64,000 nt of DNA from Jannaschia pohangensis (GTDB lineage Bacteria; Pseudomonadota; Alphaproteobacteria; Rhodobacterales; Rhodobacteraceae), in assembly GCF_900113875.1 (NCBI RefSeq), contig NZ_FORA01000001.1, positions 186,001-250,000 of the forward strand. Reading direction: 5' to 3'. Numbering within the stretch: the first letter of the stretch is position 1; each line of letters begins with the position of its first letter. The notes under the pieces were generated by a model. The model saw only the letters and a program-made list of their open reading frames with translations, did no database searches and was not told the origin of the DNA. This document shows, in pieces, positions 12,023 to 18,652 of the stretch. Position numbers and translations under genes: made by a program.

Positions 12023-12565
12023 TCAGTTGAACCGAAGGGTCTCCAGCCGTGCCATCAGGACCGATTTGACCGATGCACCGACCAGCGCGCCGGTCTCGAT
12101 CATTTGATTTCGGGCAAGCTCACCGCTGTCGTTGACGGCTTTCAGACCGTTCAGCAATTCTGAGGCATGGTCCTGAAATGCCTTGGCGCGAAAGAGAGCC
12201 GGCACCTCGAACTGCGAACCGATGCGGAACAACGGCGTTTCGGTGCTGTCGAAGACCGAGAAGATGTAGAGGAAGTTGTCGAACGCCTCACCGGATTTCC
12301 GATAGTTGCGGATCAGGACCTTCGTGTCCCGGTTTGCCGCGAAATCTCCGCGGATGGTGTTGCGCGACGATTTCTGCGTTTCCTTGCCCTGCATGAATCG
12401 GCAATTGGCCCCGAGCGCCTCTTTGGCGGAATACCCGCTCATCCGATAGAAGGCTTCGTTGGCCAGGATCAGCGGCTCGTTCGGAAGCCGGGGATCACTG
12501 AGCGTCAAGGGAATCTGCGATCCCGAAAAGAAGTCGAAAATAGCTTCGGGAATTTCCAGAGTCAT
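12023..12565 (-). CDS. Short LOV-domain blue-light photoreceptor
   Basis: The 180-residue protein consists of one LOV domain (residues 10-122) with an N-terminal cap and a C-terminal helical extension of about 55 residues, without any enzymatic output domain. The flavin adduct motif is GANCRFMQ, with the reactive cysteine at 55; Asn87, Asn97 and Gln118 (in GSQFEV) are the residues expected to hydrogen-bond FMN. This resembles the short LOV proteins described in Rhodobacter sphaeroides and Dinoroseobacter shibae. Met58 replaces the common Leu of the NCRFLQ motif. It is the last gene of a minus-strand array with Roadblock and dynamin-like genes, so its output is probably a protein interaction. 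Confidence 0.88.
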   Translation of the reverse strand: MTLEIPEAIFDFFSGSQIPLTLSDPRLPNEPLILANEAFYRMSGYSAKEALGANCRFMQGKETQKSSRNTIRGDFAANRDTKVLIRNYRKSGEAFDNFLYIFSVFDSTETPLFRIGSQFEVPALFRAKAFQDHASELLNGLKAVNDSGELARNQMIETGALVGASVKSVLMARLETLRFN

Positions 12566-12596
12566 CGGAAGGGGTCCAGCTGCAGGTCGTGAGATC

Positions 12597-12623
12597 GGCA
12601 GACCGGATCAGATACGGTCTGCC
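12597..12623 (-). promoter_or_regulatory. Intercistronic hairpin between the Roadblock and LOV genes
   Basis: A perfect 9-bp inverted repeat, GGCAGACCG and CGGTCTGCC, encloses a 9-base loop in the 71-bp gap between the two genes. No U-tract follows on the coding strand, so it is not a standard terminator. It could stabilise the upstream transcript or set a lower level of the LOV message. Function is inferred from position only. Confidence 0.5.
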
Positions 12624-12636
12624 AAAGCGTTGTGGA

Positions 12637-12993
12637 TCAGAGAGAGATCTTTTCTTCGGCCTTCTTGACCTGGACGCGGGCCATGCCGAGGTTGGCAGCC
12701 TTCTTGTCCAGGGCGACATAGAGGAACACCGTCGGCGTCTTGGCCAGCGGCCGGATCAGGTGGAACTGCTTGCCCAGCGTGATCAGGATGTCGTCGATGT
12801 GGTCGTCCAGACCCAGCATCTCGATCGCGGCCAGCTTGGCCTTCACGACTTCGGTGTTCGCAGCGCCGGCCGCGTCCAGGTCGAGCGTACCACCGCCCTC
12901 CGATGCCATCATCAGGCCGGTATCGCTGTCGACGAGACATGCACCGATGAAGCCAGCGATTTCGGTGAGGCTGGAAATATCCGTATTTGCCAT
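12637..12993 (-). CDS. Roadblock/LC7 domain protein
   Basis: The 118-residue protein is a single Roadblock/LC7 domain, the fold of MglB and dynein light chains, which commonly form dimers and act on small GTPases. The pattern FIGACLVDSDTGLMMASEGGG followed by a helix and the strand HLIRPLAKTPTVFLYVALDK is typical of the family. The start at 12993 follows AAGGAAG and gives a normal domain length; the in-frame extension upstream is probably untranslated. It lies between a dynamin-like GTPase gene and the LOV gene on the same strand. No MglA-type small GTPase is encoded nearby, so the dynamin-like proteins are its likely partners. Confidence 0.8.
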   Translation of the reverse strand: MANTDISSLTEIAGFIGACLVDSDTGLMMASEGGGTLDLDAAGAANTEVVKAKLAAIEMLGLDDHIDDILITLGKQFHLIRPLAKTPTVFLYVALDKKAANLGMARVQVKKAEEKISL

Positions 12994-13078
12994 TTTAGTA
13001 TCTTCCTTGGTTTCAGGTTTTAGAGTGGGAACGTCCTGTGAATTGTCCTCTGAGACAACAGACCTTCCGATCAGGGTT

Positions 13079-14308
13079 TCAGTGATTTTGGTCCAATGCG
13101 AACCAAGCGCTTTCCGTGAAATCTTCAAGTTCTCTTTCCAACTGCACGATCACCGCATTGACTGGCGCATCGCCAGGCCGTCCCAGGAGCATCGAGCGGG
13201 CAAAGACTGCCCGATGATCTTCGGATACTTCTAAATCACTGAAAAACGTGGTGAAAAGATGGTTTAATGTGTCATTAAGATGCTCATTTGAGGATTTTTG
13301 TCCTTCATCCGTCCGCAATTCACGGAGGGAAGCGATCATTGATGACACACGCGTGCTAACCGACGTTTCGGATTTCGCGACAGTGGATTTGGTTTTTGCT
13401 CTTTTCGGTTTCGCCGTCGCCCTTGTCGTCGATCTGCCGCCCGGCTTTTTCCGGGTGGTTTTTTCGGGCGCTTTCTCCGCAGCGGGGTTGGCGGATTTCG
13501 GGGCCGTTTTGGTTTCTGTTTTCGCGGGCGTGACAATTGTCGGTTTAGGTACCTCGCGCAATTCACGGATATCGCAAGCGGTAATTGCCGTGGAAATCGA
13601 TGCGTTCAATTCCGCAAGGAAAAGGTCGGCATGGCTTGCAACCCATCGATCCAGATCGAATGTCTTGCCATCGGCGGACCGCGCCGCCAGGGCCGACACC
13701 GTCGCGATCGGGACGACATCCCGAAAGAATTCACCGGCCTCGCTCCTGCACCGCTTCAGGACCTTTCGAAGTCCGTCAGAGCTTTTGAGCAGGTCGGAAC
13801 GGGTCAGGGCCATCAGACTGTTCGCCTGCAATTGCGCGGGCATTGCCGTCCACATTGCCTTTTCCGACTGGCGCCAGGCCTGATTGGCCGCGCTGCACCA
13901 GATCGCGAAATCGAGGTAGCGGCTCAGAAAGCTGAGGGCCCCCGCGGCCAGTCGCGGGTCCGAAATGCCGGGCGTATCCACGATATCCGTCGTCTTGAGG
14001 ATCTCGGCAGGCAGCGAAATTCGAAGCAGAAGAACGTTCTTCTCGCCCGCTTCCCGGAATTTGTCGATGTCGAATTCGGTCAGTTGTCCGTCGCGGGTCA
14101 GCGCTTGGCCCGTTCGGGTTTCACCATAGGTCAACCAGACCACGGGCATGTTCGTCGCCGTGACCTGGGTCGGCAGGAAATCGTTTCCCAACAACAGGTT
14201 CAGGAGAGTTGATTTGCCCGCGCTGTATTCTCCCATCAGGGCAAACACCGGCTTTTGACTGAACCAGGCTTCGAGAATCGAGCGGGTTTCGACGGGAAGT
14301 TCGCTCAT
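13079..14308 (-). CDS. Dynamin-like GTPase, short form with basic linker
   Basis: The 409-residue protein has a dynamin-type GTPase domain at residues 15-245: P-loop GEYSAGKST (26-34), switch threonines in TQVTATNMP, DTPG (111-114) and TRSD (169-172) for guanine recognition. Next comes a Lys/Ala/Pro/Thr-rich disordered linker (about 253-318) and a short helical tail. It lacks the long stalk and membrane-binding region of full dynamins, so it may act with the larger GTPase encoded just upstream. The two genes overlap by 4 bp (ATGA), and bacterial dynamins often occur as such pairs. Base composition toward the 3' end is clearly more AT-rich than in neighbouring genes. Confidence 0.82.
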   Translation of the reverse strand: MSELPVETRSILEAWFSQKPVFALMGEYSAGKSTLLNLLLGNDFLPTQVTATNMPVVWLTYGETRTGQALTRDGQLTEFDIDKFREAGEKNVLLLRISLPAEILKTTDIVDTPGISDPRLAAGALSFLSRYLDFAIWCSAANQAWRQSEKAMWTAMPAQLQANSLMALTRSDLLKSSDGLRKVLKRCRSEAGEFFRDVVPIATVSALAARSADGKTFDLDRWVASHADLFLAELNASISTAITACDIRELREVPKPTIVTPAKTETKTAPKSANPAAEKAPEKTTRKKPGGRSTTRATAKPKRAKTKSTVAKSETSVSTRVSSMIASLRELRTDEGQKSSNEHLNDTLNHLFTTFFSDLEVSEDHRAVFARSMLLGRPGDAPVNAVIVQLERELEDFTESAWFALDQNH

Positions 14309-16419
14309 GAGGTGGCAACCGACCCGGACCGCAGCATTTCCGGTTCGACCGATGGCTGGAACAGCGTTTCCAACTGCGCGACGACATTCTGCAATTCGGC
14401 AATGCGATGACGAACCTCGGTGTCGACGCCCAATTGCCGCATTACCTGAAGGCGCTGTGCCTCACCTCCCAACAAGGACAGGTTCTGCAAGGTCCGAATG
14501 TGTTCGGACAGGAATTCGAAAAGCTGTGTCCGAACCTCTTTGAGGAATTCGATGACGTAGACGTCTTCCATCTCCTTGAGGGTTCTCTTCATTTCGGTTC
14601 GGCTGATCGTTTCGAATTTCTTGATATAGCTGTCCTGATTGAACTTCTGGGCGAACCAGCTTTTGACCCAACCGGTCTGAAAGTCGATCTTCATCGTGCG
14701 CATCAGGGATACGGGGGTCTTGGGACTTGCGGATACAGGCGGCGCGACGGCAAAGAGCCTTGTGCTGTCTTCCAGCACCGTCGCGTATATTCTTTCGATT
14801 TTTGTGGCGGTCTCCGAGAATACCCTGTCGACCTGACGCGGGGCCGCTTTGACGAATTCGTCATGCGCCAAATTCAGGTCACGCCGCAGCTTGTCGCTGT
14901 CCGGACGCCATTCCTTGATGTCCTTGTTTTCGGCCAGATGCGCTTTCAGGCTAGCCTTGCCGGACAGCATGAAATCACGGAATGTCGAAGACATCAGGAA
15001 CAGCACTTTTTCGGAAAGATCATGGGCGATGACATTGCAGGCCTCGTCCGCCTCTTTCATCGTGTTGTCGAGATCATCGATAAAGGCGTCGAAGTCGAGA
15101 TCTGCGCGCAGGGACGACGTCGATTTGGCGGCCTGCTGCAAATAGATCAACGACTGCCGCGAGATATCGAGGGCGCGACTGCGAACGGAGTCCAGCTTTG
15201 GCCGCCCGACATTCGCGGCACTCTTCTCTGCGAGGATGGCCTGCAATTCATGGAGACCGGACAGATCGAATGTCTTGGTCGCGGCCATTTGTGCCGATCC
15301 CGGTTTTGCATCTTCCAGAAGCGTGACGCTGGAGCCGGCGATGCGGGTCGAGCGCGCCACCGCGAATTGGGCCAGGCGGTCTTCGTTTGCCGTATCGATC
15401 ATCTCTGTCTGACCGGCGGAGGCCAGTTCCGCCCAGGCGGCACTTCCGAACACGATCGGCAATTCGCGCGGCAGGTCCTGCTCTGCCAGAAGGTCGCGGA
15501 TAAAGGTGTCGATTTCGATGATCTGCCGGTCCGGATCCTCGAGTTCGTCTATGCGATTGACAAAAAGCACCAACTCTTTGTGCTTGAGCGCCAACAGGAT
15601 ACGCAGCAGACCGACATCCACCGTGCTGAACGCCTGGTGGGCGCTGAGAACGACCACGCAGATATCCGTTTCGCTCAGATTGGCGAGGGTCATTGCCTCG
15701 CGCAGGAGAAACGGATCATTGACGCCCGGAGTGTCATAAAGAACGGTCGGGAGAGTGTAGTTTTCGTTTTTGATATAGATCTGGGCCGAGCGCGTGACAT
15801 CGGCATATCGGCCTTCGTTCTGGGCGTCGTCATCACCCAGACAGACGTATTTCTTGATCATCTCGGGCGAAAACCCGAGGAAACTGTGATATCCATCGAG
15901 CAGCATGCCGAAGTTGTGCCCAAGGCGCGCCTCTGTGCGGCGCTGCATTGCGGTGACCTGCGCGCGCAGTTCCGCCAGTTCGTCATCCTGGTTGGCACGC
16001 CCGGACTGCTCGCCCAATTCGCCATTGACGGTGATCAGGTTCTGCCATTCTTCCCTGGTGAAGAACTTGAATATCGCATTCTTGCCATGCGGCTGCGGGG
16101 TATTGATGTGGATCGACGTGATGACCGACGTCCAGGGGTTCACGTCCGACGGCAAGAGATCGGGAATGCCGATCAAGGCGTTGGTCAAAGCGGTCTTTCC
16201 GGCCTTGACCTGACCAATCAGGGAAATGCGCGCGGAAAACGCGGCCAGCTCGGATTTCAGGTTCTGGATCGTTGCGGCGGTGTCCGGGTTCGATAGCCGT
16301 TCCAGCCGATCCAGGGCGTCCGCAAGTTCCGCCTGGCAGTTCCGGACCAACTCAGCATCGGGGTAATTCACCTTGCCTTGCGGTTTGAGGAATTCTGAGA
16401 GTTCTTTGTTTTTGAGCAT
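14305..16419 (-). CDS. Dynamin-like GTPase, long form
   Basis: The 704-residue product is a bacterial dynamin-like protein. The GTPase domain has P-loop GQVKAGKT (69-76), a candidate switch Thr in NPWTSVIT, DTPG at 229-232 and NRID at 288-291. The remaining 400 residues are mostly helical with coiled-coil character and would form the stalk; a hydrophobic and basic stretch around GWVKSWFAQKF is a possible membrane contact. The start at 16419 (MLKNKELSEF) is preferred because the upstream in-frame part looks non-coding. It is translationally coupled to the shorter GTPase. Family members remodel or tether membranes; the target membrane here is unknown. Confidence 0.85.
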   Translation of the reverse strand: MLKNKELSEFLKPQGKVNYPDAELVRNCQAELADALDRLERLSNPDTAATIQNLKSELAAFSARISLIGQVKAGKTALTNALIGIPDLLPSDVNPWTSVITSIHINTPQPHGKNAIFKFFTREEWQNLITVNGELGEQSGRANQDDELAELRAQVTAMQRRTEARLGHNFGMLLDGYHSFLGFSPEMIKKYVCLGDDDAQNEGRYADVTRSAQIYIKNENYTLPTVLYDTPGVNDPFLLREAMTLANLSETDICVVVLSAHQAFSTVDVGLLRILLALKHKELVLFVNRIDELEDPDRQIIEIDTFIRDLLAEQDLPRELPIVFGSAAWAELASAGQTEMIDTANEDRLAQFAVARSTRIAGSSVTLLEDAKPGSAQMAATKTFDLSGLHELQAILAEKSAANVGRPKLDSVRSRALDISRQSLIYLQQAAKSTSSLRADLDFDAFIDDLDNTMKEADEACNVIAHDLSEKVLFLMSSTFRDFMLSGKASLKAHLAENKDIKEWRPDSDKLRRDLNLAHDEFVKAAPRQVDRVFSETATKIERIYATVLEDSTRLFAVAPPVSASPKTPVSLMRTMKIDFQTGWVKSWFAQKFNQDSYIKKFETISRTEMKRTLKEMEDVYVIEFLKEVRTQLFEFLSEHIRTLQNLSLLGGEAQRLQVMRQLGVDTEVRHRIAELQNVVAQLETLFQPSVEPEMLRSGSVATS

Positions 16420-16558
16420 CACCAACGTTCCAGATTTCGCAAGAGCGCTGCGCCTAGACACATCGTCCTGACGCCGCCCCCAATTTCGGTGCCATCGAGG
16501 CGGTCTTCGCAAAGGTTGCACCCGGGGGAAGCAGCGCCTTGGCCCGTGGCCCGGAAGA

Positions 16559-17413
16559 TCATTTCAGATTGAAGGACGCGTATCCTTCGGATGATGTGGT
16601 CCCGGTCAGGATGACCGAATTGCTGTCCGACAGGACGGAAATGGACGAGGTCTCCCGATTGCGCCCGAGGAGTCCCGCAGCGATCGCCGACAGGGCCTGC
16701 ACGGTCGCGAAATCCGATCCGGCAGCCGACGCAAGCGGCCATCCGTCGGCATCGAAGACGAATTCGCCCGACCCCGACTCGTCCGTGACCTGCGCCAGCA
16801 AGTCCGACAACGTGAACGGCGGGGCGTCTTGCGGTCCGTCATCGTCGGCAAGGGTGTATCGCACGGCCTTCTTCCCGGTACAGGCCTTGCGCAGGGCCGC
16901 AACAAAGGTCGCCGGGTCCGTGAAATCCCCGTCAAACCGCAAGGACCCATCCGCGACGGAAATCGTCCCCTGCGCCTGCGCCAGTTCGAAGGCAAAGGTC
17001 CGGGGCAGGACCGATGCGTGAAGCCTGCTGACAACCGCCCAGAACGCTCGCCGGAAACGATCGTCGCTCGGCAATTTGAAAGATGTGCGATGGTCGGGTC
17101 GCGCAGGCGCGAGCGTCTTGCTCGATGCGCGCATCAGGCCGATGTTCAGCGTGTCCTGCGCCTCGACGATCAAACCGCCGGTCGCGGCCGCCAGATGCAC
17201 GCGTCCGTCGGACTTCAGCATCATGATCGACGCCTTGCCGAGGCCTTGTGCGGCCGTCCAGAGGGCGAGCGTTTCCGCGGCGGCAGGGGCATGGTCTGAC
17301 ACGTCGTCCTGCCCGATGCAGGGGCGGAGTTCGTCATCGACGTAATGAAACGCCGCGATCACACCTTTGATGGGTGGAACAGGCCAAGAAGAGACATCGG
17401 GCACGTTGACCAC
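16559..17413 (-). CDS. Uncharacterised protein with two possible Roadblock-like segments
   Basis: I do not recognise a named family for this 284-residue protein. The first half contains ALWTAAQGLGKASIMMLK, then DGRVHLAAATGGLIVEAQ. The last third contains LLAQVTDESGSGEFVFDADG with WPLASAAGSDFATVQALSA, then a strand ending in EGYASFNLK. Both stretches have the strand, loop and helix layout of Roadblock/LC7 domains, so I suspect a diverged tandem Roadblock protein. No membrane segment or signal is visible. The start is a GTG; a second GTG three codons on is possible. It is the first gene of the minus-strand array, 139 bp upstream of the long dynamin-like gene. Confidence 0.5.
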   Translation of the reverse strand: MVNVPDVSSWPVPPIKGVIAAFHYVDDELRPCIGQDDVSDHAPAAAETLALWTAAQGLGKASIMMLKSDGRVHLAAATGGLIVEAQDTLNIGLMRASSKTLAPARPDHRTSFKLPSDDRFRRAFWAVVSRLHASVLPRTFAFELAQAQGTISVADGSLRFDGDFTDPATFVAALRKACTGKKAVRYTLADDDGPQDAPPFTLSDLLAQVTDESGSGEFVFDADGWPLASAAGSDFATVQALSAIAAGLLGRNRETSSISVLSDSNSVILTGTTSSEGYASFNLK

Positions 17414-17483: not shown

Positions 17484-18365
17484 CTAACTGGGGCAAGAAT
17501 GTGACCGCAATCCCTGGCTGCGCTCGAATTCCCGTTGTGCCTGCAATGATGCCGCGAGACATTCGGCGGAAACCTGTGAGTTGGCAAAGCCGCCCAGTTC
17601 GCGGTCGCCGGAGCGTCCGAACCTGAGCGTTGCCCGTTCTGCCCCGGTGCAGGCCATCACGACGCAGGCCCCGCGCCGTGCATCCTCGCGAAAGGTCGCG
17701 ACGCAGTGGCGCTGCGTCTTCCCTTCGCGCACTAGATCGCGGTCCGAGGTCAGTCGCGTGAAAACGTAGTCGCCGACGGTGACCGTATATGCGGGCGCCC
17801 ATGTCCCGGAGTCGGCGTCATTGATGGCCAGGCTGACCGCCCGGCGATCGTGTTCACGCTTGAGCCGTTTCAGGCTCCACCCGTCGCGCGGCGCGCCCCC
17901 CATCTTGATCGTATCGCGATACAGCATCGACACCTGAAGAAACCTGCCGACGTCGGCCAGGCGCGCCGCATAGCGCGCCGTTGGCCAGTCGACCGCATTC
18001 CGGCAGGACCGCAGATGCGTCTGCGGCACGGTGACGATCTCGTCCCACGCCGCTCCCCCTTCGAACCGCAGCCAGATCAGGACCCGACGGAAATTCACGT
18101 CCTCGTCGGCATGGTGGAGCTTGCGCCAGACGTGTCTTCCCAACTGCGCCCGGATCTCGGCGACATCGACCCCCAGAGCCAGGATGATGGGGACAAGCTG
18201 CTCCAGCCCATCCCGCCGCGCGGCAAGCACCGCGTCATGGAGAAGGGATAGCCTGCCCGCGAAAAAGCTGCGGTGCTGCCCGCACAGGCGGGAATACCAT
18301 TCGGGTGGCGACAGAGGCTGCTGCACCTCGACCCCACGCGTGTCGATCGGTCCTGTCATGTTCAT
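17484..18365 (-). CDS. PcfJ-like domain protein
   Basis: The 293-residue protein resembles the PcfJ-like family, named from a gene of a conjugative plasmid but also found alone in chromosomes. The diagnostic part lies near the C-terminus: a LVREGKTQRHCVATFREDA block with conserved His and Cys, then CVVMACTGAERATLRFG. The first 170 residues are helical with many Trp and Arg and have no recognised domain. I chose MNMTGPID at 18365 as start because the longer frame runs into the tRNA-Ser gene. No other conjugation genes are near, so a conjugative role is unlikely. It lies on the 3' side of the tRNA. Confidence 0.6.
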   Translation of the reverse strand: MNMTGPIDTRGVEVQQPLSPPEWYSRLCGQHRSFFAGRLSLLHDAVLAARRDGLEQLVPIILALGVDVAEIRAQLGRHVWRKLHHADEDVNFRRVLIWLRFEGGAAWDEIVTVPQTHLRSCRNAVDWPTARYAARLADVGRFLQVSMLYRDTIKMGGAPRDGWSLKRLKREHDRRAVSLAINDADSGTWAPAYTVTVGDYVFTRLTSDRDLVREGKTQRHCVATFREDARRGACVVMACTGAERATLRFGRSGDRELGGFANSQVSAECLAASLQAQREFERSQGLRSHSCPS

Positions 18366-18562
18366 CCCCCACAGATGATTGGCAAATCCTGCGACAGAAA
18401 CCGACCTTTGGCAATGACGCGCCGATCCAGGGACCGTCGGTCCACGGCATCGACCCTGGGTTTGCCTCATTTTTGACCGCTCGCCCGATCCGCCCGGAAC
18501 CGATCCACGGACACCGGACCCCGTGCCGCGGGGGAGGCGAGATCGGGTTTGCACTGTGCAAG

Positions 18563-18652
18563 TGGCGGGGGCGGTGGGATTCGAACCCACGAGACGCTTT
18601 CACGCCTGCCGGTTTTCAAGACCGGTGCCTTCGACCGCTCGGCCACACCCCC
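18563..18652 (-). tRNA. tRNA-Ser (anticodon UGA)
   Basis: A 90-base class II tRNA folds on the minus strand. The acceptor GGGGGTG pairs with CGCCCCC, the anticodon loop CTTGAAA carries TGA flanked by ACCGG and CCGGC, a long variable arm is present, and the T arm GTGGG-TTCGAAT-CCCAC is intact. The discriminator is G and the CCA end is encoded. The variable arm and UGA anticodon identify a serine tRNA for UCN codons. Confidence 0.97.

Follow-up and report, generated by a model that had tools for sequence, protein, structure and literature searches.

A Roadblock-fold protein encoded with a dynamin-like GTPase pair, and in some relatives with a short LOV protein, in Jannaschia pohangensis

We analysed a 64,000-nucleotide stretch of the Jannaschia pohangensis genome (assembly GCF_900113875.1, contig NZ_FORA01000001.1, positions 186,001 to 250,000; hereafter the window, to which coordinates without a locus label refer). 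Between positions 12023 and 17413 the window carries an array of five genes encoding a protein that we call P5, a long and a short dynamin-like GTPase (lDLP and sDLP), a Roadblock/LC7-fold protein (RB) and a short LOV protein. The common core of the array in its relatives is RB with the pair of dynamin-like proteins (DLPs), and LOV is an optional add-on sensor. The explanation that we favour, with modest confidence, is that the array encodes a heterotypic DLP pair set by RB acting on sDLP, probably with P5, and that in some relatives LOV adds a light or redox input. The features are as follows.

16559-17413, minus strand: P5, 284 aa, first gene of the array (translated from a GTG start)
14305-16419, minus strand: lDLP, long dynamin-like GTPase, 704 aa (ATG start chosen by us; the open reading frame opens at 16521)
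16192-16215, minus strand: G1 motif (P-loop) of lDLP, GQVKAGKT, invariant in 9 of 9 aligned lDLPs
13079-14308, minus strand: sDLP, short dynamin-like GTPase, 409 aa
14210-14233, minus strand: G1 motif (P-loop) of sDLP, GEYSAGKS; G26, E27, S29, G31, K32 and S33 invariant in 7 of 7
12637-12993, minus strand: RB, Roadblock/LC7-fold protein (MglB-like), 118 aa (ATG start chosen by us; the open reading frame opens at 13128)
12023-12565, minus strand: short LOV protein, 180 aa
12401-12403, minus strand: codon of the predicted adduct cysteine, Cys55, in GANCRFMQG, invariant in 7 of 7 linked LOVs

An initial annotation of this DNA had described five minus-strand genes lying head to tail, and all five were found. 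Read 5' to 3' on the minus strand their order is P5, lDLP, sDLP, RB, LOV. The two GTPase genes overlap by 4 bp, and the remaining gaps, which depend on the chosen starts, are 139 bp (P5-lDLP), 85 bp (sDLP-RB) and 71 bp (RB-LOV).

RB and the dynamin-like pair recur together

Scanning GTDB genomes with RB yielded 146 relatives, and the best 80 were analysed; the titles of the closest mostly name Rhodobacteraceae or genera belonging to it. An lDLP match accompanies RB in 19 of these best 80, all 19 falling within the 24 relatives at 68% identity or above, and another 56 have no lDLP or sDLP match within the stretch examined. With duplicates joined and loci of further family genomes added, 29 distinct loci contain RB, lDLP and sDLP. 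The duplicate check left a single alike pair, L104 and L105, which come from one species, are 92% alike over 6.2 kb and are both counted. L080 (RB about 6.8 kb from a GTPase gene) and L101 (RB and lDLP without sDLP) stand outside the 29. Two of the 29 have vague or odd titles, L115 ("Pseudomonadota") and L119 ("Oceanobacillus"). The latter, titled Oceanobacillus sp. HTM 045, a Firmicute, has RB and DLP genes of Rhodobacteraceae type, and the label looks wrong or the assembly mixed.

Homologues of P5 occur in 14 of the 29 loci and LOV in 7, of which 6 also have P5. The LOV loci are those of the window, L099, L102 (=L062), L107 (=L060, Hasllibacter halocynthiae), L108 (Jannaschia aquimarina), L109 (Roseobacter sp. 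CCS2) and L114 (=L061, Rubricella aquisinus). The initial annotation had made conservation of the five-gene order a check on its reading. The order does recur in other genera, which is more than chance would give, but what recurs throughout is the RB-DLP part; a five-gene core, considered at one stage, was rejected on the LOV and P5 counts.

A profile search across the class (385 genomes, E 1e-40) found this lDLP and this LOV in two genomes only (G000 and G294), both of the window's family, and close relatives therefore look confined to that family. A search of plasmids found no LOV at 1e-25; with RB it returned 4 distant records, and the 2 inspected list no dynamin.

RB and sDLP share one reading frame in six relatives

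One open reading frame holds both sDLP and RB in 6 of the 29 loci. Four of these frames contain close relatives of RB (L114, L063, L103, L110) and two contain divergent ones (L119, also sampled as L066, and L083). The Pfam dynamin domain is found in all six, below the cut-off in L119. On a tree of lDLP, which excludes 12 short matches and hence lacks L083, L073 and L077, the fused state needs 4 changes for the 5 fused loci in the tree, so fusion was gained or lost repeatedly. We regard the shared frame as the best evidence that a Roadblock protein may act on a dynamin, and the earlier proposal that the two belong together is borne out by the 29 loci that hold both.

Fusions of RB to signalling proteins occur too: to Ser/Thr kinases in L112 (8855-10357, Rhodobacter sp. 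SY28-1) and L082 (8005-9423), with no DLP match in the stretch read, and to a receiver and DUF4388 in one open reading frame of a Myxococcales metagenome-assembled genome (MAG; L151, 9119-10339). With these kinase and receiver fusions, RB looks like a signal-input module, and from the gene structures we read it as a putative adaptor, taking in signals and acting in turn on the GTPase. We no longer count a replacement of the sDLP tail by RB as general evidence, the tail being unrecognised in unfused loci as well; such a replacement is hinted at only by L103 and L110, where close relatives have retained the tail.

A different explanation, improbable in our judgement, is that RB works for a small GTPase encoded at another place in the genome and is connected to the DLPs only indirectly, as a scaffold or for localisation. 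The precedent is the Roadblock protein MglB, described as the GTPase-activating protein of the small GTPase MglA (PMC4316618). Members of the RB family in Gammaproteobacteria (Kangiella L137, MAG L128) do adjoin a small GTPase-like protein, whose Pfam match to ATP_bind_1 passes the cut-off and whose matches to Ras and Roc do not; the Kangiella locus also encodes a second Roadblock protein (Robl_LC7, 4.6e-6). The six fused frames oppose an indirect link. The array itself encodes no small Ras-like GTPase, as the initial annotation had remarked, and the Kangiella GTPase, used as the sole query and without a positive control, found no match in the window's genome, where the Arf model gave one match, within an 875-residue frame.

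Roadblock identity of RB and P5

Neither RB nor P5 received a name in Pfam, NCBIfam and PADLOC scans (no Pfam family above the cut-off), and we turned to predicted structures. An AlphaFold2 model of RB (pLDDT 94.9), searched against the PDB with Foldseek, retrieved MglB 6izw first (E 5.6e-8, probability 1.0, TM-score 0.78). In all, 108 PDB matches had E of 0.001 or less, and the best 50 of the 108 are all MglB, MglC, Ragulator or other Roadblock chains. The order of the modelled elements (helix, two strands, long helix, three strands, helix) is that of the Roadblock fold.

The Pfam Robl_LC7 model has no match above its cut-off to the window's RB and none in a search of the whole genome. The RB alignment had 45 rows; L122 was removed for a stop, and L120, L151, L079 and L082 were dropped too, leaving a 40-row version. 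Robl_LC7 touches 7 of 40 RB family members at E of 1 or less (best 2.9e-4; the window's RB is not one of them), and an unrelated viral model matches 4 members as well as Robl_LC7 does. The search of the window's own genome was empty because Robl_LC7 misses the RB family. The modelled fold outweighs this missed match, and we take it to confirm that RB belongs to the Roadblock/LC7 superfamily, the assignment first made from the sequence.

The evidence for P5 is weaker. Its AlphaFold2 model (pLDDT 87.4, from 13 sequences) matched LAMTOR/Ragulator chains at probabilities of 0.82-0.98, with a best E of only 0.019 and no match below 0.001; ranked by E, a PCNA chain comes first, at a probability of 0.15. 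A strand-helix-strand order fits Roadblock at both ends of the model. P5 is likely Roadblock-like but not settled as such, and the "possible Roadblock-like parts" suggested earlier stand in this weaker form.

These assignments allow a comparison with known Roadblock systems. As in MglA/MglB and the actinobacterial conservons, a Roadblock protein, here with a fold nearest to MglB, is paired with a GTPase, but the GTPase is a dynamin-like pair and not a small Ras-like protein; the array has no histidine kinase or CvnC-type protein, and its Roadblock protein is one that Robl_LC7 misses. RB and, more weakly, P5 resemble the LAMTOR folds of Ragulator, the Roadblock scaffold of the Rag GTPases; the differences are the weak P5 match and the dynamin-like nature of the GTPases, and no sign of a multi-subunit scaffold was seen.

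Members of the RB family (L123 to L178), largely missed by Pfam, also occur in Actinobacteria, Gammaproteobacteria, Cerasicoccus, and Myxococcales and Chloroflexota MAGs. In the Actinobacteria read, they adjoin further Roadblock proteins.

The GTPases resemble a bacterial DLP1/DLP2 pair

The initial annotation's long and short dynamin-like GTPases are both recognised by Pfam Dynamin_N (lDLP, 3.1e-13; sDLP, 1.4e-12). A profile built from relatives of lDLP matches chain 5owv_A (1e-10) and the bacterial dynamin-like protein 2j68 (2.3e-8), and one built from relatives of sDLP matches chain 5owv_C (1.5e-23) in the G domain only. From their lengths, we take these two 5owv chains to be Campylobacter DLP1 and DLP2, respectively. 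The best-scoring matches of both profiles cover the G domains. The motifs of lDLP include GQVKAGKT, DTPGVND and NRID; sDLP consists of a dynamin-type G domain, a basic Ala/Pro-rich linker and a tail of about 90 residues.

Bacterial DLPs are described as mostly side-by-side operon pairs, and the Campylobacter pair as tethering liposomes (PMC6104087). The array has the same arrangement, two neighbouring dynamin-family GTPases with motifs of G1, G3 and G4 type, and an sDLP-type match adjoins lDLP in 30 of the 30 loci first fetched (the window's own among them). An interpretation as two separate dynamins was dropped for one heterotypic pair; on their sequences, lDLP and sDLP are best seen as a pair of the DLP1/DLP2 type. 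The likeness to Campylobacter jejuni DLP1/DLP2 (5owv; PMC6104087) lies in the neighbouring partner GTPases, lDLP matching DLP1 and sDLP matching DLP2. The array differs in its shorter sDLP (409 aa versus 614), matched in the G domain alone, and in its Roadblock protein, the word "roadblock" occurring 0 times in the text of PMC6104087.

The LOV protein is tied to the RB-DLP module

LOV matches Pfam PAS_9 (2.5e-9) and consists of a LOV core and a C-terminal extension of about 55 residues, without a fused effector. Its closest solved chains, both named LOV protein, are 7ob0 (1.9e-26) and 4hj4 (5.8e-24), which we take to be Rhodobacter RsLOV. The protein has the GxNCRFxQ adduct motif and the FMN-contact Asn and Gln residues of a stand-alone short LOV. 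In an alignment of the 7 linked LOVs, N54, C55, R56, F57, Q59, N87, N97 and Q118 are unchanged in 7 of 7, presumably as adduct and flavin mononucleotide (FMN) contact residues, and the C-terminal extension also contains conserved positions. The adduct site is intact, as had been noted at the outset, and photochemistry is predicted.

In each of the 7 LOV loci, LOV is the gene immediately following RB and has the same orientation. Among 295 genomes of the family, the four LOVs below 1e-40 (at least 41% identity, the window's own included) are the four found in RB-DLP loci. The other 16 LOV places listed (limit 1e-20) are at 8.4e-25 or weaker, with no RB, DLP or P5 match within about 1.5 kb; nine LOV loci fetched more widely (eight of the 16 and one other) have no RB, DLP or P5 within about 5-8 kb. 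In a tree of LOVs the seven linked proteins form one side of a branch (support 89/90; 86% of 200 bootstrap trees), and pairwise distances between LOVs track those between lDLPs (r 0.91; as high in 1 of 5040 permutations). On the lDLP tree LOV needs 3 changes with the second lDLP of the Hasllibacter locus unlabelled and 4 with it labelled, so LOV was lost or moved while staying with this module. These sequence comparisons support a tie between the linked LOV clade and the RB-DLP module.

The stand-alone core with an intact adduct site, and the best PDB matches 7ob0 and 4hj4, liken the array's protein to the short LOVs RsLOV, DsLOV and PpSB; the linked LOVs differ in grouping apart from other LOVs of the family. 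A further difference from RsLOV concerns neighbourhood, as judged from a homologue: no match to RB or a DLP lies within about 8 kb of L207/L220, the nearest homologue found for the RsLOV stretch (82%).

The genomes that carry the linked LOV tend to have photosystem genes. The window's genome has two reaction-centre (Photo_RC) genes, and photosystem genes occur in 6 of 7 LOV genomes (window included) versus 7 of 22 LOV-less ones (one-sided Fisher p 0.019, uncorrected for kinship, 14 of the genomes having been reached via named loci with completeness unstated). This association bears on an explanation that we judge unlikely, namely that LOV is a passenger, or an independent regulator of a transcription factor (of photosynthesis genes, for example), whose place behind RB reflects shared expression or island transfer. 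LdaP, a LOV-domain protein of Dinoroseobacter shibae, is described as an antirepressor of PpsR (PMC10890935), and PmSB-LOV as acting on a MerR-type regulator (PMC9758184); LOV goes with photosystem genes and is missing in most RB-DLP loci; and the G+C content of the array (58.0%, versus 65.2% for the window) and a nearby tRNA gene are as in a transferred island. Against it, no LOV below 1e-40 lies away from RB-DLP loci in the 295 family genomes, LOV co-diverges with lDLP, and no conserved transcription factor was noticed beside LOV in the loci listed, no dedicated test having been made.

Near the solitary RBs of L075 and L078 lies a PAS gene without the adduct Cys, adjoining a gene that looks XRE-type (named by reading); this PAS gene was set aside.

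A model for signal input to the GTPase pair

In the explanation that we favour, RB would be an adaptor that docks on sDLP and sets the activity or assembly of lDLP and sDLP, with P5 probably a second Roadblock-like subunit. The short LOV, present mostly in relatives with photosynthesis genes, would give RB an input of blue light or of flavin redox state. The LOV dimer would occupy one state in the dark; blue light would form the Cys55-FMN adduct and change the dimer, as in RsLOV, and the changed dimer would alter the hold of LOV on RB or the contact between RB and sDLP. RB would then permit or block lDLP-sDLP assembly, GTP hydrolysis and membrane tethering. RsLOV is reported to be a dimer in the dark that dissociates in blue light (PMC9614035), and a Pseudomonas short LOV acts on PmlR2, which is encoded next to it (PMC9758184); on these precedents a light-dependent grip on RB is plausible. 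We infer the LOV-RB contact, the sign of the light effect, the GTPase readout and the action at the membrane. Taken as a whole, the interpretation in the initial annotation is partly supported, through the conserved order, the link between RB and the dynamins and the tie of the LOV clade to the module.

Several observations weigh against this model. LOV is absent from 22 of the 29 loci, so the core works without it. The branch support of the linked LOV group falls short of the level that the tree program counts as firm. Shared inheritance is enough to make neighbouring genes co-diverge, and the LOV-lDLP correlation is therefore no proof of contact; the 3 changes of LOV on the lDLP tree are as compatible with loss or exchange as with function. 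The association with photosynthesis genes is a small one, uncorrected for kinship as stated, and fails in one LOV genome (G295). On the GTPase side, a hydropathy scan of lDLP and sDLP found no transmembrane-like segment, and sDLP is short, with its DLP2 match limited to the G domain. At least 4 of the six fusions retain a Met where RB begins, so they could yield free RB as well. A recognisable sDLP tail is absent in 6 of 6 fused forms but also in 11 unfused, mostly distant sDLPs, and its absence in fusions therefore says little.

A more specific version is offered only tentatively, as a possibility: on sensing blue light, LOV would release or recruit the Roadblock subunit of the GTPase pair and in this way switch membrane tethering or remodelling in phototrophic Rhodobacteraceae, a natural light-gated dynamin; more broadly, Roadblock proteins would regulate dynamins as well as small Ras-like GTPases, as a bacterial Ragulator-like hub for LOV, kinase or receiver inputs.

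The part families are known; the combination was found undescribed in the literature searched, in agreement with the initial annotation. Among the titles and abstract openings listed, mostly a capped share of the hits, that search found no Roadblock-dynamin or LOV-dynamin system in bacteria, with subscription journals thinly covered and absence unproven. Roadblock proteins are known partners of small Ras-like GTPases; if the favoured model is true, the shared frame in six relatives would extend their partners to large membrane GTPases. Short LOV proteins, for which the first bacterial protein partner was reported in 2022 (PMC9758184), would likewise gain a new candidate target. A natural light switch on a dynamin would be of interest to optogenetics and to the study of photosynthetic membranes.

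Genomic setting and related GTPase loci

The window comes from a genome of 3.73 Mb. Just upstream of the array, positions 17484-18652 hold a PcfJ-like open reading frame and a tRNA-Ser gene (18563-18652), an island-like setting. With the low G+C of the array, these neighbours suggest that it may be a transferred island. A promoter and terminator scan was uninformative (one promoter-like site, on the plus strand; ten terminator-like sites versus 7.2 by chance).

Such a setting, together with the patchy spread of the module, would also suit a mobile stress or anti-phage system of the Leo/dynamin type, with LOV as one of several triggers, an explanation that we think very improbable. PADLOC does match lDLP weakly to LeoBC (4.3e-8), over short stretches, but no match covers most of a model, the LeoA match of sDLP (5.9e-5) is also short, and the array does not qualify as LeoABC. 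No defence genes were noticed beside the loci, the PADLOC scan having covered the five array proteins. Related lDLP/sDLP loci, moreover, look like signalling loci, with genes for a Ser/Thr kinase, an FHA-like protein and PP2C; they also have a further GTPase-like gene.

One of these related loci (L095, 3690-12866) is a conserved island with a Ser/Thr kinase, FHA-like, PP2C and GTPase-like genes, lDLP, sDLP and small unnamed proteins. No paper combining most of these components was found in the literature search. Similar gene orders occur in L094, L087, L096 and others. The presence of kinase, FHA and PP2C genes beside related DLPs suggests that phosphorylation may be a further input to this GTPase family. 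PP2C and DLP genes of the L095 kind also lie on another contig of the window's genome (L059), which ends there, and in Hasllibacter the LOV module stands side by side with a kinase-FHA-PP2C-DLP module.

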